The notes under the pieces are model-generated. The model did not search any database and had not been told where the DNA came from. It worked only from the letters and a program-made list of their open reading frames with translations. Shown here one piece after another: positions 5,149-12,702 of a DNA stretch of 64,000 bases. The position numbers and the translations under genes were made by a program. The stretch comes from an uncultured Phycisphaerales bacterium (GTDB lineage: Bacteria > Planctomycetota > Phycisphaerae > Phycisphaerales > UBA1924). Positions within the stretch are counted from its first letter, which is position 1, and every line of letters begins with the position of its first letter. The stretch spans positions 1-64,000 of the forward strand of contig CALMPG010000075.1 of the NCBI GenBank assembly GCA_937871915.1, given 5' to 3'.

Positions 5149-5242
5149 AGACTGAGCATACCAGATGCCGGGGAAATGCCAGCGCCGACTCCGACTGGGT
5201 GCTCGCTTGGTCGTTTGGGCAAAGTTCGCATATCCTTGGGAA

Positions 5243-6982
5243 ATGTCCGTGCGCCGCGTGTATCTCGAGACCTTTGGCTGCCAGATGAACGAGCTCGACA
5301 GTGAGTTGGTGTCTGGGCAGCTCCGCGCGCTGGGGTACACGTTCACGGCGAGCCGGGATGATGCGGACGTGGTGTTGTACAACACGTGCTCGGTTCGGGA
5401 GCACGCGGAACAGAAGGTGTGGTCGCGGCTGGGGGAGGACAAGGCCCGGAAGGTGCGCCGACCGGCGATGGTCGTGGGCGTGCTGGGGTGCATGGCCGAG
5501 CGGGATGGCATGGACCTGATCCGGCGGATGCCGGTCGTGGACATCATGTGCGGGCCGGGGGAACTCGACAAACTTCCCGGGCTGCTCGACAACGCGGTGC
5601 GGACGCGCGAGTCGATCGCGGCCGATGCTCCCCCACCGCCGCCCGAGGCGTTTGAGGGGCCGGATCCGGAGGCGGATGAGGGGGAACTGACTCGGAGGCT
5701 GCGATCGGCTTCGCAGATTGCGCTGCAAGGGAACACATCGCGCCGGAGCGCGACGCTGGCCGCGGCGGCGGACAATCTGGAGATGCTCGATCTGTCGCGG
5801 TCGGTGTCGGCGGATGACCACTCGGGCTCGGCGTATGTGCGGATCACCCGCGGGTGCAACAAGTTCTGCACGTATTGCGTGGTGCCCTTTACTCGCGGGG
5901 CGGAGATGCATCGGCCGCCGCGCCACATCGTGGATGAGTGCAAGCGGCTGGCGGATGCGGGGGTGATCGAGGTGACGCTGCTGGGGCAGACGGTGAACCA
6001 CTACCGATTCGAGCACGGCGCGGCCGTGACGATCGGGGGCGTGGTGCAGCCGCAGAAGGGGCGGAGCTACACCGGGGGGCACTCGCGGGATCCGTTCGCG
6101 GGGGAGCGAACGACGACGTTCGCCGATCTGCTGGGGATGATCCACGATGAGGTGCCGGGGATTCGGCGGCTGCGATTCGTCACGAGCTACCCGCGCGACT
6201 TCGGCGACGATGTGTTGCAGATGATGCGGGACAAGCCACGGATCTGCCGGTACCTGCACGTGCCGGCGCAGAGCGGGTCGAACCGGATCCTGGAAAAGAT
6301 GAACCGGGGGTACACGGTCGAGGAGTACCTCGAGTTTCTGGATCGAGCGCGGTCGTACCTGCACGAGCCGGAGATCGGAAGACCGCTCACTGTGGCTGGG
6401 GACATCATCGTCGGGTTTCCGACCGAGACGGACGAGGACTACGCGGCGACGGTTCGGTTGGTGGAGCGAGCGCGATACAAGAACTGCTACATCTTCAAGT
6501 ACTCGTCGCGGCCGGGGACGATCGCGGATGAGAAACTGCCCGACGATGTGGCCGAAGGCGTGAAACGGCGGCGGAACAACGACCTGCTGGATGTTCAGCA
6601 GCGGATCAGCGCGAGCGTGAGCGCGGAGTTTGTCGGGCAGTCGATGGACGTGTTCGTGCAGGGGGTGTCGAAGCGGCACGCGAAGGCGGCGGCCGCGGCG
6701 AGGCCCGCGGCGGGTGCGGTTGCGCTGACGCTCGGGGGCAAGTCGCTCGTGAGCGGGGCTTCATGCTCGGAAGAGGCGACGCACGCGCACGAGGCGGATG
6801 GTTTCGCTGTAGTCCCCCCACGGTCGGCAGGGACGATCCAACTGTCCGCACGCACCGAGGGGGACATTATCGTGTTCTTCGATGCACCCGCGGGGGGCTC
6901 GCCGGACGACCTGATCGGGCGTGTAGTGCGGGTGAGGATCGATCGGACGGAGCCGCTGGCACTGCACGGACGGGCGGAATGA
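5243..6982 (+). CDS. miaB: tRNA-2-methylthio-N6-dimethylallyladenosine synthase
   Basis: MiaB is a radical-SAM methylthiotransferase that adds a methylthio group to i6A37 of tRNAs reading UNN codons. The N-terminal domain carries the three auxiliary-cluster cysteines (Cys13 in LETFGCQMN, Cys49 in LYNTCSVRE, Cys83 in VLGCMAE). The radical-SAM CxxxCxxC is CNKFCTYC at 205-212. A TRAM region follows. The 579-residue product is longer than the usual 440-480 owing to three insertions: about residues 125-185 before the radical-SAM motif, a loop after LLGQTVNHYRF, and a split C-terminal TRAM region. ATG 5243 is chosen because the conserved VYLETFGC begins there; an earlier in-frame ATG at 5165 would add 26 unrelated residues. 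Confidence 0.93.
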   Translation: MSVRRVYLETFGCQMNELDSELVSGQLRALGYTFTASRDDADVVLYNTCSVREHAEQKVWSRLGEDKARKVRRPAMVVGVLGCMAERDGMDLIRRMPVVDIMCGPGELDKLPGLLDNAVRTRESIAADAPPPPPEAFEGPDPEADEGELTRRLRSASQIALQGNTSRRSATLAAAADNLEMLDLSRSVSADDHSGSAYVRITRGCNKFCTYCVVPFTRGAEMHRPPRHIVDECKRLADAGVIEVTLLGQTVNHYRFEHGAAVTIGGVVQPQKGRSYTGGHSRDPFAGERTTTFADLLGMIHDEVPGIRRLRFVTSYPRDFGDDVLQMMRDKPRICRYLHVPAQSGSNRILEKMNRGYTVEEYLEFLDRARSYLHEPEIGRPLTVAGDIIVGFPTETDEDYAATVRLVERARYKNCYIFKYSSRPGTIADEKLPDDVAEGVKRRRNNDLLDVQQRISASVSAEFVGQSMDVFVQGVSKRHAKAAAAARPAAGAVALTLGGKSLVSGASCSEEATHAHEADGFAVVPPRSAGTIQLSARTEGDIIVFFDAPAGGSPDDLIGRVVRVRIDRTEPLALHGRAE

Positions 6983-7242: not shown

Positions 7243-7270
7243 TTGACAGTCCTGCGCCATCCTGTAGATT
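7243..7270 (+). promoter_or_regulatory. sigma70-type promoter of RNA candidate
   Basis: A perfect -35 TTGACA (7243-7248), a 16-base spacer and TAGATT (7265-7270, 4 of 6 matches) form one of the strongest promoter matches in the window. Transcription would begin near 7277. The inverted repeat TGTC-N6-GACA ends 9 bases upstream of the -35 box and could be an operator. Confidence 0.7.
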
Positions 7271-7276
7271 ACCTCT

Positions 7277-7475
7277 GCCTTTTCTGATTGCCCCTGAGCG
7301 CTCCATTGCCGAGTCTGTCTGCCTTCGGGTGGACCGGACGAGGCGCGAGAGAGAAATGGAGAGAGAGAGATAAAGGCCTCAGGGAGCAGTTGGAGTGAGA
7401 GAGAGGCGAGAGAGGGCAGATATGTCCTCCAACCCGGGTGTGAACTGACCGGTCACACCCGGGATTTTTATTTTT
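7277..7475 (+). ncRNA. candidate structured small RNA
   Basis: A consensus-like promoter and an intrinsic terminator bound a roughly 200-base segment with no credible coding frame. Hand folding gives an ordered structure. First, a UUCG-capped hairpin at 7308-7344: GCC/GGC, then tandem G-A/A-G mismatches, then about 11 pairs. Second, an enclosing helix CCCTGAG (7292-7298) with CTCAGGG (7378-7384). Third, a helix GTTGGAG (7389-7395) with CTCCAAC (7427-7433), whose 31-base loop is a purine-rich GA repeat. Fourth, the terminator stem. It lacks the SRP RNA GGAAG apical motif, and I could not match it to 6S, tmRNA or RNase P. It could instead be a long attenuated leader of the downstream ECF gene. 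Function unknown. Confidence 0.55.
7433..7475 (+). terminator. intrinsic terminator
   Basis: A perfect 11-base stem, CCCGGGTGTGA (7433-7443) with TCACACCCGGG (7453-7463), has a 9-base loop and is followed by ATTTTTATTTTT. The T-rich tail occurs only on the plus strand, so it stops rightward transcription. Confidence 0.88.
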
Positions 7476-7597: not shown

Positions 7598-8224
7598 ATG
7601 AGTACCACGATGACCGACGATGCCCGCGACGCCCAGGCCGCCTTGGCGGCACGGAACGATTCCGCGGCCACGCCGGACGCTCATCGGGCGTTCGCCCGAA
7701 TCTACGACCGGCATTGCGCCGTTGTCCGTGCGCTGTGCCTGCGACATCTGCCGACCGACACCGACGCGGACGACGCATTGCAGGAGACATTCCTCCGTGG
7801 CTTCCGGCTGCTGCACGAACTCTCGGACCCCGACGGCCTGCGGCCCTGGCTCTACGCCATTGCCCGCAACGTGTGTGCGGAGCGGCGGCGCTCGGCGGCT
7901 CGCCGCAATAGGCACGAGCAGGCCGCGGCGGAGGAGCGCATCGTTATGAGCGGGCTTGCCTCGACCAACCACTCACCGCACACGGCCCGGCGTGAAACAC
8001 CGGTGCCGGACGCGGCCGAGAAGTCCGAAGTCCTGTCGCGCCTGACCGCGGCGCTCGATGAGCTTCCCGACGATGAGCGTCTTGCGATCCACCTGTACTA
8101 CCTGGAGCCCGACCCCGTCGCGGCCGCGGGGGCATCCCTTGGAATCTCCCGGAGCGGTTTCTACAAACTTCTGAGCCGGGCCCGTGACCACCTCGCCTCC
8201 ATCCTGGGACCAGTTGCCCCATGA
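7598..8224 (+). CDS. ECF-type RNA polymerase sigma factor
   Basis: The product is 208 residues with the two ECF core regions. Region 2 is around residues 28-95 (FARIYDRHCAVVRALCLRH, then DADDALQETFLRGF and RPWLYAIARNVCAERRR). Region 4 is around 150-205, ending in a helix-turn-helix (GASLGISRSGFYKLLSRAR). A polar linker of about 50 residues joins them. It should direct polymerase to a small set of promoters in response to a signal held by a partner. The stop overlaps the ATG of the next gene (ATGA at 8221-8224), so the membrane-bound VIT/vWA protein is the obvious candidate partner. No classical short anti-sigma gene is adjacent. ATG 7598 has only a weak GGGTGA upstream. Confidence 0.9.
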   Translation: MSTTMTDDARDAQAALAARNDSAATPDAHRAFARIYDRHCAVVRALCLRHLPTDTDADDALQETFLRGFRLLHELSDPDGLRPWLYAIARNVCAERRRSAARRNRHEQAAAEERIVMSGLASTNHSPHTARRETPVPDAAEKSEVLSRLTAALDELPDDERLAIHLYYLEPDPVAAAGASLGISRSGFYKLLSRARDHLASILGPVAP

Positions 8225-11200
8225 CCACTCCTCCCCGAAACCCCCACATTCCGACCAACGATGGCGCCGACGCCACCCCCCCACCGCCGGCGCGAGATGA
8301 GCTCGATGGACTGCTCCGCCAGTGGCACCTCGCGAACGCCGAGAAGGCCGCGGCCGGACGTGATCGGCTGGTGAGTGCACTGGCCAAGGAGAGCCATGGC
8401 GAGGCAGGCGACTCGGACCGTGGCCCGTTCCCGATCCACGGCGAGGACGCGGCGCGGGGTTGGATCACGGTTCGGTCGATCCTGTTCAACCGGTACGTGC
8501 CGTTGGCGGCGGCGGCGGTGATCGTGGCGGCGCTGTTGCCGTTCATGCTGCCGACCAGATCGGGCGTCGTCGCTCCTGTGCACGCGAAGCCGGACTCGAA
8601 CATCGTGATGGCGCCCGAGGGCGGTCGGCTGGATGCGCTGGACCGTGAGGGCAACCTGATGGGGCCGTGCATGCTGAAGCACACGGACGTGAAGGCGGAG
8701 ATCAGCGGGCGGTTTGCGCGGGTGACGGTGACGCAGCAGTATCACAACCCGTACCCGGACAAGATCGAGGCGGTGTACACGTTCCCGCTGAGCGACCGGG
8801 CGGGGGTGGACCGGATGAACATGACCATCGGCGATCGGGTGGTCGTCGGCGAGGTGAGGGAGCGGGAGGCGGCGCGTCGGGTCTACGAGCAGGCCCGGGA
8901 GGCCGGGCGCACGGCGAGCCTGCTGGAGCAGGAGCGGCCGAACATCTTCACGCAGTCGGTGGCGAACATCGACCCGGGCGCGACAGTCAACATCGAGATT
9001 TCGTACGTGGAGACCGTGGCCGAGCGGGACGGCGAGCTGGTGTTTGATTTTCCGACGGTGGTCTCGCCGCGCTACATCCCGGGTGCGGGCCTGGACAGCA
9101 AGCAGGAGATTCGGCCGCTGCCGGCGGGGACGAAGATGCGGGCGGGGGTGGTGCTGGCCGCGCCGGCGACGGTGGCGGATGCGAAGCGGCACGGGGCGAC
9201 ATCCGGTGATCCCGGCGAGCGCACGCCCGAGGCGCTGGAGATCATGCTTGCGAGGGCGACGCCGATCGCGACGCCCGAGGAGGACCCCACCGCGAGCACG
9301 GCGCCGTGGTATGACGTGGATGTGGCCTATCCGGACGGCTCGACCGAGCCGGCGGTGATTCTCGCGGACGGGCGCGGCGAGGTTGGGGGGCGGTGGTTCT
9401 ATTGCCCGGTGAGCCCCCCCACTGCCATTCCTGCTTCCGGCGAGCCATTCGCCCAGCCGACAGACACGGTGCCCGACGCGGATCGGATCACACCCATGCC
9501 GACGCGCCCGAACGTTCGGGCCGGGCACGACATCTCAATCTCGGTGACGCTGGACACCGGCGGGCCGGGGATCACGACGCTCGACTCGCCGCTTCACAAA
9601 GTCGTGCGGACGGATCTGGCGAGGAACGCGCTGGAGCAGCCGCGGCGCGTGTCGATCGCGCTGGCGAGCCTGAACGAGATTCCCAACCGGGACTTTGTGC
9701 TCAGGTGGAAGCAGACGGCGGAGACGATCACCCGGCGGGTGTTCACGCACACGGGCGAGCACGGCAACTTCTTTGCGCTGCAACTGGATGCGCCGGAGCG
9801 GGTGGACGACGTCGATGCGGTTCCGCGGGAACTGGTGTTTGTCGTGGATACCTCGGGATCGATGAACGGGCGGCCGATGGCGCTCTCGCGGGTGGTCATG
9901 CAGAAGGCGATCGACGCGATGCGGCCGCAGGACACGTTCAACATCGTCTCGTTCGCGGGGGAGACGAGGGTGCTGTGGGAGCGTCCGCGGCCGAACACGC
10001 CGGCGAATCGGACGGCCGCGCAGAGGTTTATCAAGACGTGGGAGGGCTCGGGCGGGACGGAGATGATGGCGGCGATCGATACGGCCCTGCGGCAAGCGCC
10101 GGCGGATGAGGGGGCGGGCGGAGTGACGCTTGCGCACTTGGCGAACCTGCCTGCGGATGGGCGGGCCGTGCGGGTGATCCTGGAGGATGGGGAGATCGAG
10201 ACCGACCGGATGGAAGCCGGGGGCCTGATCCGCTCGCCAAGACTCATCGTTCGCGAGGGTGTGCACATCAGGTGCACGGACTTCACGCTGCCGGAGCGGT
10301 TCCTCAAGCGGGCGGACCAGACGGTGGCGGACGACACGGTCACGCTTCGGGTGCTCGTGCAGGGAACATGGACGACCGAGAACGGGGAGCGGGTGCTCAG
10401 GGCGGACAAGGTCGGGGAGTTCTACGGCGACACGGGCGTGCGGCCGCTGCGGATCGTGATGTTCCTGACCGATGGAGAGGTGGGGAACGACATGGCGATC
10501 ATCGATGCGATCCGGCGCAACCGCGCGACCACGCGGGTGTTCTCCTTCGGCATCGGCAACAGCGTGAACCGGTTTCTCATCGACCAGATGGCGATCGCCG
10601 GGGGCGGGGAGCCGGAGTACGTGTTTGTCGCGCGGGACTCGGACGGCGACGCCGATGCCGCGGTGGAGCGGTTCAATCGTCGCACGCGGACGCCGGTGCT
10701 GACGGACGTGACGCTCACGTTCGATGGGGTGAAGCCCTTGGACATGCTGCCCGCGCCGGGGCAGATTCCGGACCTGTTCGACGATCGGCCGCTGACGTTT
10801 CTGGGTCGGTATACGGCGGCGGGCGTGGGGGCGGTGACGATCAAGGGGATGACGGCGCGGGGTCGGTGGGAGCGGACGATTCCGATCGCGTTCCCGGCGC
10901 AGGAGGAGCAGAACTCGAGCCTGCCGGTGCTATGGGCCCGGGCGAAGATCGATGCGGTGATGGCGCGGGACCTTGCTGGGATTCAGGCGGGGCATCCGAG
11001 TCCGGCGGTGCGGGCCGAAATCGTGAGCCTTGGCGAGACGTTCAACGTCATGTCGCCCTTCACATCGTTTGTCGCGGTGGACAAGTTGCGGGTGACGATC
11101 GCGGGCAAGCCGCGCCTTGTGCGCGTGCCGGTGGAACTGCCGGACCGGACGAACTGGGCGGGGTATTTCGGCGGCATTGCGCCTGACGTGCGGACCCGCG

Positions 11201-12702
11201 GGCCCGGTGATGCGGAGAAGCGAGACGACCGCTCCGGGAAGGACCTGGACGCTCGCGGCGCGGGGGACGCCGCGGAGTCGGCCGGCCGGATTCTGACGCT
11301 CAACGAAGTCGTGCTGTCCGAGTTGATCGCGTTCAACGACTCGTGCATGAAGCAGGAGGACGCGGCTCGCACTGGCGCGACGGGGGACAAGATGGTTGTG
11401 GGCGCGGAGTTGGGTTTGGCCACGGGCGTGCCGGTGTCGCCGACGTTCCCGCCCCCGCCTCCCCCTCCTGCACCGACCGCGGAGGAATCTCGAGATGTAC
11501 CGGCCAGGCCCGCGGGTGGGCAGAGTCCGTTTGTGAAGGCTCCTTCGGCCAAACCAGCGGACCAGCCTCGTGGAAGTTCGTCGCGTTCGGAAGTGGCTGA
11601 ATTCCGCGAAAAGACGAAGAAGGCGACGGAGGCCTCGAAGCTCGACGGCTCCGGCGTTCGCGAACCTGATGCAGGAGTGGACTTGCCGGAGATGCTTCGA
11701 GTCCGAAGGAGGCGGGAGCCCGGGCTGCCTTGGAGCCGGAGCGCAGATCCGGCGGATGTCCAGCCGACCCGGACCTTCGGCGGGTACGGCATGGAAGACG
11801 CTCGGCGCGAGGCGCTCGGCAAGGACGCGGCGAGCCCCATGCTGGTTCCCCCGCACATGATGGACTTTCCAACCGACTGGCCCGTCAAGACGTGGATGCG
11901 TGGCGAGTACGGCGGGTCGGTAGCGTGCGACTGGGATTTGCTCCTTGCGAACGTCGATGCTCCCGCGCCCGAGTCGCTGGTGGCGCTTGCCGCGGCCCAA
12001 CTCGCGGGCGAGGGTCGCTACGCCGAGGCGAAGTCGCTGGCGTGCTCGAACCTCGCCGGGAATCTCAACCTGGCGCTGGGCAATCGGGCCCAGGGGAACA
12101 CCTCCAACTTCGCCGGCAACCTTCAGCAAAGTGCCGCGCCGTCCTCCGTGTCGCAGGTGTGCGGGGCGCTGAGTTCGAAACTGCCCGAGGCGGAGAAACA
12201 GGCGGCGATCGAGCAGGCCCGCGTGCGGGCATCGACCGAGCTGTTGGAGGCGAGGAAGGCGGCGATGGTGTATCGCAAACTCGCCCCGGAGTTGTTTGCC
12301 CGCACCAATCGCGCCGAGAACACGGCGAGCATGGAGCAGGCACCCCAGACCGGGAACACCCGTTTGCCGCAATCCTCCGGTGCTGGTCCGAAGGTCGATT
12401 CGGTCGCGGCCACGAAGGACGTGGATGTGCCCGCGGCGGAGGCCAAGATCGTGGATCGGAAGGCAACGGAGACGGCGGTGCCGGCACCCGCGGCGGCAAC
12501 GCCCGGCGTTCTGGTCACGGTGCTGCTCGCCGATACGACAGCGGCGACGCTGGATGCGCTCAAGGCCATCGGCTTCACGATCGAGACTCTCAGGCCGGAG
12601 TTCGGGGTTGTCATCGGGCGGATTCCGGCGGACAAGCTCGAAGCGTTGGCGCTGTTGGCGGTCGTGCGGCGGGTGGAGCCCGTTCCCGACGGGGGCGGGT
12701 GA
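8221..12702 (+). CDS. giant single-pass membrane protein with VIT and vWA domains
   Basis: The product is 1493 residues. A roughly 90-residue cytoplasmic N-terminus (LLRQWHLANAEKAAAGRDRL) is followed by one membrane segment (about 92-111). Then come a VIT domain (about 130-262; TVTQQYHNPYPDKIEAVYTFPL) and a vWA domain with the metal-site motif DTSGSMN at 543. The vWA domain is split by about 107 residues (roughly 632-738) before it resumes at IVMFLTDGE. The distal 500 residues are low-complexity, with a Pro-rich run near 1075-1090, and a small conserved-looking C-terminus. VIT/vWA proteins generally bind other proteins through the metal site. The layout, cytoplasmic tail plus one helix plus large exterior, and the 4-base overlap with the ECF gene resemble an anti-sigma factor, but no known anti-sigma domain is visible. 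Confidence 0.88.
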   Translation: MTTPPRNPHIPTNDGADATPPPPARDELDGLLRQWHLANAEKAAAGRDRLVSALAKESHGEAGDSDRGPFPIHGEDAARGWITVRSILFNRYVPLAAAAVIVAALLPFMLPTRSGVVAPVHAKPDSNIVMAPEGGRLDALDREGNLMGPCMLKHTDVKAEISGRFARVTVTQQYHNPYPDKIEAVYTFPLSDRAGVDRMNMTIGDRVVVGEVREREAARRVYEQAREAGRTASLLEQERPNIFTQSVANIDPGATVNIEISYVETVAERDGELVFDFPTVVSPRYIPGAGLDSKQEIRPLPAGTKMRAGVVLAAPATVADAKRHGATSGDPGERTPEALEIMLARATPIATPEEDPTASTAPWYDVDVAYPDGSTEPAVILADGRGEVGGRWFYCPVSPPTAIPASGEPFAQPTDTVPDADRITPMPTRPNVRAGHDISISVTLDTGGPGITTLDSPLHKVVRTDLARNALEQPRRVSIALASLNEIPNRDFVLRWKQTAETITRRVFTHTGEHGNFFALQLDAPERVDDVDAVPRELVFVVDTSGSMNGRPMALSRVVMQKAIDAMRPQDTFNIVSFAGETRVLWERPRPNTPANRTAAQRFIKTWEGSGGTEMMAAIDTALRQAPADEGAGGVTLAHLANLPADGRAVRVILEDGEIETDRMEAGGLIRSPRLIVREGVHIRCTDFTLPERFLKRADQTVADDTVTLRVLVQGTWTTENGERVLRADKVGEFYGDTGVRPLRIVMFLTDGEVGNDMAIIDAIRRNRATTRVFSFGIGNSVNRFLIDQMAIAGGGEPEYVFVARDSDGDADAAVERFNRRTRTPVLTDVTLTFDGVKPLDMLPAPGQIPDLFDDRPLTFLGRYTAAGVGAVTIKGMTARGRWERTIPIAFPAQEEQNSSLPVLWARAKIDAVMARDLAGIQAGHPSPAVRAEIVSLGETFNVMSPFTSFVAVDKLRVTIAGKPRLVRVPVELPDRTNWAGYFGGIAPDVRTRGPGDAEKRDDRSGKDLDARGAGDAAESAGRILTLNEVVLSELIAFNDSCMKQEDAARTGATGDKMVVGAELGLATGVPVSPTFPPPPPPPAPTAEESRDVPARPAGGQSPFVKAPSAKPADQPRGSSSRSEVAEFREKTKKATEASKLDGSGVREPDAGVDLPEMLRVRRRREPGLPWSRSADPADVQPTRTFGGYGMEDARREALGKDAASPMLVPPHMMDFPTDWPVKTWMRGEYGGSVACDWDLLLANVDAPAPESLVALAAAQLAGEGRYAEAKSLACSNLAGNLNLALGNRAQGNTSNFAGNLQQSAAPSSVSQVCGALSSKLPEAEKQAAIEQARVRASTELLEARKAAMVYRKLAPELFARTNRAENTASMEQAPQTGNTRLPQSSGAGPKVDSVAATKDVDVPAAEAKIVDRKATETAVPAPAAATPGVLVTVLLADTTAATLDALKAIGFTIETLRPEFGVVIGRIPADKLEALALLAVVRRVEPVPDGGG

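Follow-up and report, generated by a model that had tools for sequence, protein, structure and literature searches.

Evidence for a small RNA family in Phycisphaerales with GA tracts resembling those at PEP-CTERM-like surface-protein leaders

What is encoded between miaB and an ECF sigma factor gene in the genome of an uncultured Phycisphaerales bacterium? The DNA examined here, called the window, is a 64,000-nt stretch of contig CALMPG010000075.1 (GCA_937871915.1), in which a first-pass annotation had placed a probable new small RNA at positions 7243–7475. Upstream lies miaB (5165–6982, forward strand; TIGR01574 at 356.9 bits for a cut-off of 355.3, with Pfam UPF0004 and Radical_SAM), which ends about 260 nt before the proposed promoter. 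Downstream, the ECF sigma factor gene (7598–8224, forward strand; TIGR02937, Sigma70_r2/r4) is followed by a gene for a VIT/VWA protein (8221–12702; VIT).

The promoter and the terminator described in the first pass are both borne out. The sigma-70-type promoter (7243–7270, forward strand) consists of TTGACA (7243–7248) and TAGATT (7265–7270) separated by 16 nt, and is the only sigma-70-like match in 2.5 kb, where shuffled sequences predict 0.1; the form TTGACA-16-TANATT precedes all 12 homologues described below, with a spacer of identically 16 nt. The intrinsic terminator (7433–7475, forward strand) comprises a perfect 11-bp stem (7433–7443/7453–7463), a 9-nt loop, ACTGACCGG, and the U tract ATTTTTATTTTT. 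It was overlooked by an automatic terminator scan because the scan permits loops of 3–8 nt only. The small RNA gene delimited by these signals spans 7277–7475 on the forward strand, its 5′ end being set from the promoter and its 3′ end from the terminator. The fold of 7275–7475 has an energy of −89.8 kcal/mol (z = −5.6, a value owed in part to the terminator), and none of 200 dinucleotide shuffles is equally stable. The reported lack of a coding frame holds as well: stops occur in nearly every frame across the 12 homologues, whose lengths of 195–226 nt are out of phase, and a protein-coding gene is thereby ruled out. The locus is apparently a conserved non-coding RNA gene with independent transcription, from which an RNA of about 200 nt would be expressed.

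BLAST with 7243–7475 retrieved ten more loci from the same family, and the twelfth homologue, in genome G044 (E = 2e-7), came from a search with a covariance model built on the 3′ part. The RNA is thus found in 12 of 163 family genomes, in eight genera, with 11 strong homologues; a BLAST search over 301 genomes of the order returned family members only. When 84,980 species genomes were scanned for an exact pattern, ten real loci emerged, all in Phycisphaerales and including Phycisphaerales bacterium UBA4658, of the same genus as the window, together with ten chance matches elsewhere that have neither promoter nor GA tracts. The covariance-model matches L064–L069 and L072 were set aside as weak, with no clear homologue among them. 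Two of these, L068 (G089:C35, ~448–524) and L066 (G095:C11), show GA-rich stretches with terminator-like hairpins after them; they come from genomes devoid of the small RNA, and are possibly other GA-tract RNAs.

Conservation is confined to the promoter, the initial ~10 nt of the RNA, its GA tracts, a 3′ hairpin and the terminator. Pairs of the 3′ hairpin (GAGGGCA/TGTCCTC; 7412–7429, forward strand) are kept in all homologues, with a both-side change in one pair and a one-side change in two, and the terminator stem has compensatory changes in five pairs; the 3′ element GGAGYGAGAGAGAGGCGAGAGAGGGC hardly varies among eleven of the homologues. The central rod displays a few compensatory pairs, among close relatives, but its stability beyond composition is modest, so that it deserves less confidence than the two 3′ hairpins. 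A UUCG-capped hairpin drawn in the first pass at 7308–7344 does form in the fold of this genome, but is unconserved even in the two congeneric genomes. The terminator loop (7444–7452 in the window, and its counterparts in the homologues) is invariantly UGACCGRU, in most cases together with the palindrome GACCGGUC. Such constancy above a co-varying stem points to an additional role for the loop, for instance in kissing or protein binding.

No Rfam family matches the RNA at gathering score, the only similarity being a chance snoRNA match (E = 4.2); a known RNA family is thereby ruled out. Searches of a literature library found no paper on Phycisphaerales small RNAs. Given homologues with compensatory changes, the Rfam result and a position partly independent of miaB and the ECF gene, the new small RNA proposed at this locus is, judged from sequence comparison, a real, narrowly distributed and previously undescribed family. 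That the RNA is a divergent form of 6S, binding RNA polymerase, is very improbable. The RNA does resemble 6S RNA (RF00013) in its size of about 200 nt, its rod shape and its own promoter, and no 6S RNA is recognizable in the 12 RNA-bearing genomes; yet the RF00013 covariance model matches neither the window nor anything else in those 12 genomes, the RNA has a patchy distribution (just 12 of 163 family genomes), and its GA-rich loops lie on one side only, which sets it apart from an open-promoter mimic.

Could the RNA instead act in cis as a leader or attenuator, with readthrough of its terminator setting the expression of what lies downstream, whether the ECF sigma-VIT operon or a redoxin-like gene? 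The next gene is co-directional with the RNA at 11 of 12 loci and is the ECF gene, directly preceding VIT, at seven; moreover, the RNA occurs in 9 of the 11 genomes that bear the ECF gene, a co-occurrence that may be owed to common descent. However, the two are decoupled in several genomes. A redoxin-like gene unrelated to ECF comes next at three loci, the ECF gene is about 3 kb away in G082, the next gene in G030 is convergent (with miaB beyond it), and in both G001 and G011 the ECF gene is present but no RNA was found. Every homologue also has a strong terminator, with no alternative antiterminator pairing evident. With no constant downstream gene, control in cis is unlikely, and the varied neighbours, together with the two genomes that have the ECF gene without the RNA, argue that the RNA gene is an independent unit.

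All five exact copies of GAGAGAGA in the 64-kb window fall inside the RNA locus, and ensemble prediction leaves the GA tracts of the RNA largely unpaired, consistent with the exposed GA-repeat loop of the first-pass annotation. Tract 1 (CGAGAGAGA; 7345–7354, forward strand) has a mean unpaired probability of 0.97 and tract 2 (GGAGAGAGAGAGAT; 7358–7371, forward strand) of 0.78, and tracts 3 and 4 form a bipartite module, GGAGTGAGAGAGAGGCGAGAGAGGGC (7392–7417, forward strand), that is nearly invariant in 11 of the 12 homologues and absent in G044. These 11 homologues have 4–7 (GA)n tracts each, mostly single-stranded in predicted ensembles. The G044 homologue, L063 (G044:C77, ~16.9–17.1 kb), retains promoter, 3′ hairpin and terminator and adjoins the same ECF/VIT operon, and in the absence of GA tracts from its sequence it is a natural knock-out of them.

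Where else do such tracts occur? Sites of the form (GA/CT)4.5 were taken from three genomes of the window's genus, G000, G050 and G091, and 35 of the 100 distinct sites among the matches listed precede PEP-CTERM-like (exosortase-sorted) surface-protein genes as part of their 5′ leaders, a few of these calls having doubtful start codons (for example the second site of locus L206). The class is assigned by a tail pattern such as VPTPGSAALLGLGGLLAARRRR, since NCBIfam PEP-CTERM/exosortase matches are sub-threshold for several products; nearly all products have a signal peptide. Of 801 positions drawn at random from the same loci, 35 fell in such leaders, as against 35 of 200 site orientations (either tract sense, among the sites listed), and this control is conservative because the control loci are themselves rich in PEP-CTERM genes. 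Among the matches listed, 24 of the 35 leader sites are GA-sense, adjoining the start codon, and 11 are CU-sense, the latter complementary to the RNA. A frequent form of the GA leaders is GGAGAGAGAG-ATG, in which the tract extends a Shine-Dalgarno-like GGAG, and CU leaders often have CUCUCUCUCGAAAGG followed by ATG. The 14-mer GAGTGAGAGAGAGG is common to the RNA and two G000 leaders, and the tract is kept in the orthologous G050/G091 leaders L174/L228, L195/L207 and L198/L224. In one PEP-CTERM gene present in all three genomes (L148, L173 and L206), the CU stretch appears to occupy the loop of a hairpin predicted for the leader, ahead of the start codon (GCGGCG-UCUCUCUC-CGCCGC; GACGG-CUCUCA-CCGUC). 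At L146 (G000:C21, locus 1085–1170), a pair of GA tracts, separated by 50 nt and by a hairpin, lies ahead of what may be a 20-residue hydrophobic peptide.

Across 163 genomes, the CU-leader patterns CTCTCTCGAA..ATG and CTCTCTCTCG..ATG are not significantly more frequent in RNA-bearing genomes of other genera (p = 0.085), the GAA pattern showing no excess. Unbiased 400-kb samples of other genera hold only a handful of PEP-CTERM genes, too small a number for a conclusion: GAGAGA is present in one to three of three PEP-CTERM leaders in G015, depending on the choice of start, and in none of three in the RNA-negative G051. GA/CU k-mers before all signal-peptide genes are not enriched in the 400-kb samples, an underpowered comparison in which a home-made gene caller undercalled genes. 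The link between the repeated element of the RNA and PEP-CTERM-like mRNA leaders is well supported in one genus, where it was found post hoc, and is firm only there.

A second GA-tract RNA-like element, unrelated to the small RNA, is observed at L232 (G050:C193, ~13.1–13.4 kb) and L233 (G091:C3, ~20.7–21.0 kb). It is located 150–230 nt 3′ of a PEP-CTERM gene, has its own strong terminator and shows the same bipartite module, as GAGAGAGTGGCGAGAGAG, within a hairpin loop closed by 9 bp.

Because the GAGAGAG element, present in many copies in the RNA, also marks ribosome-binding regions of PEP-CTERM-like genes in the genus, the RNA probably controls PEP-CTERM-like surface proteins. The reading that we favour, to which we assign a probability of about 0.38, is that it acts as a decoy, offering several sites to a factor that binds GA tracts, and so tunes exosortase-sorted surface proteins. 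A free-standing RNA of ~200 nt would be transcribed from its own sigma-70 promoter and fold as an imperfect rod, the 3′ strand of which displays 4–7 GA tracts, with a hairpin and intrinsic terminator at its end. The tracts would copy the one that overlaps the ribosome-binding region of PEP-CTERM mRNAs, compete for the factor controlling those leaders, and thereby tune the output of exosortase-sorted surface proteins. We infer the existence of such a factor, of the CsrA family or other, as well as the direction of regulation. The G044 homologue, with no GA tract at all, counts against this decoy, and a GA tract beside a start codon might be no more than a strong Shine-Dalgarno region.

The closest parallel to such a decoy is with CsrB, CsrC, RsmY and RsmZ. 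These, too, are free-standing small RNAs that have a promoter and a terminator of their own and repeat a short purine motif many times; here the motif likewise resembles the ribosome-binding region of the putative targets. CsrA (PF02599) is encoded in 149 of 150 family genomes, including every RNA-bearing one, and is by presence only a candidate partner. In contrast, the CsrB-type motif is GGA within an ANGGAN hairpin loop (PMC7652899), whereas the repeat here is (GA)n in one-sided internal loops, and similarity in sequence or to the Rfam models is absent. The 11 GA-bearing homologues have 4–8 GGA each, within GA-rich internal loops; GGA in ANGGAN hairpin loops, the hallmark of CsrB and RsmZ, was not found in the RNA. 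The GGA core that CsrA needs is missing from tract 4 and from about ten GA leaders, the tract CGAGAGAG has no GGA, and the G044 homologue is nearly devoid of it.

The CU leaders bear on another possibility, somewhat less probable, namely that the RNA is a base-pairing small RNA whose GA tracts (CGAGAGAG) anneal to the CU tracts (CUCUCUCG) of PEP-CTERM leaders just upstream of the ribosome-binding site, so that translation is blocked or remodelled. As in trans-encoded small RNAs with repeated seeds, exposed seed-like tracts recur that are complementary to the leaders of one gene class. The 11 sense CU tracts in PEP-CTERM-like leaders of the genus (among the sites listed) are predicted to form duplexes of −21 to −36 kcal/mol with the RNA of the same genome, although the sites had been picked for complementarity, and the hairpin-loop position of the CU stretch in the gene shared by all three genomes is also in keeping with pairing. 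On the other hand, GA leaders outnumber CU leaders (24 against 11 among the sites listed), and G066 has a PEP-CTERM-like gene with a CU leader in a genome where the RNA was not found. The seed would be a simple GA repeat; beyond the genus its complementarity to leaders is apparently not conserved, the genome-wide excess of CU leaders there being non-significant. Furthermore, Hfq (PF17209) was found in 2 of 150 family genomes, both without the RNA, by a search that was positive in five control genomes; an Hfq-binding AG repeat is ruled out, as Hfq was not found in RNA-bearing genomes. The decoy is favoured over pairing, not decisively, on account of how many tracts each RNA has, how much they resemble the GA leaders, and the second, unrelated RNA with the same module behind a PEP-CTERM gene.

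A broader, tentative reading is that of a post-transcriptional regulon in Phycisphaerales, in which a (GA)n/(CU)n code would co-ordinate PEP-CTERM surface proteins through a dedicated protein that binds GA tracts or through RNA–RNA contacts. The code would span the dedicated small RNA, the second, 3′-UTR RNA, ribosome-binding regions and complementary leaders. Haft et al. described a regulatory motif upstream of PEP-CTERM genes that is confined to Proteobacteria, with more regulators and motifs left to discover (PMC1569441). That PrsK/PrsR sigma-54 control resembles the present case in having a common element upstream of many PEP-CTERM genes (PMC1569441). Theirs, however, is a DNA enhancer/sigma-54 site found in Proteobacteria only, whereas the GA/CU tract lies at the ribosome-binding region and is shared with a small RNA. 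If the repeat of the small RNA is a mark of PEP-CTERM leaders, their regulation becomes directly testable, which also suggests an RNA regulator of the decoy type that belongs to neither the Csr nor the Hfq paradigm.

Apart from the GA tracts, GGAG is more frequent upstream of signal-peptide genes than of other genes in the 400-kb samples of G000, G090 and G051 (59% versus 28% in G051, p = 1.4e-6), hinting that secreted proteins depend more on Shine-Dalgarno initiation.
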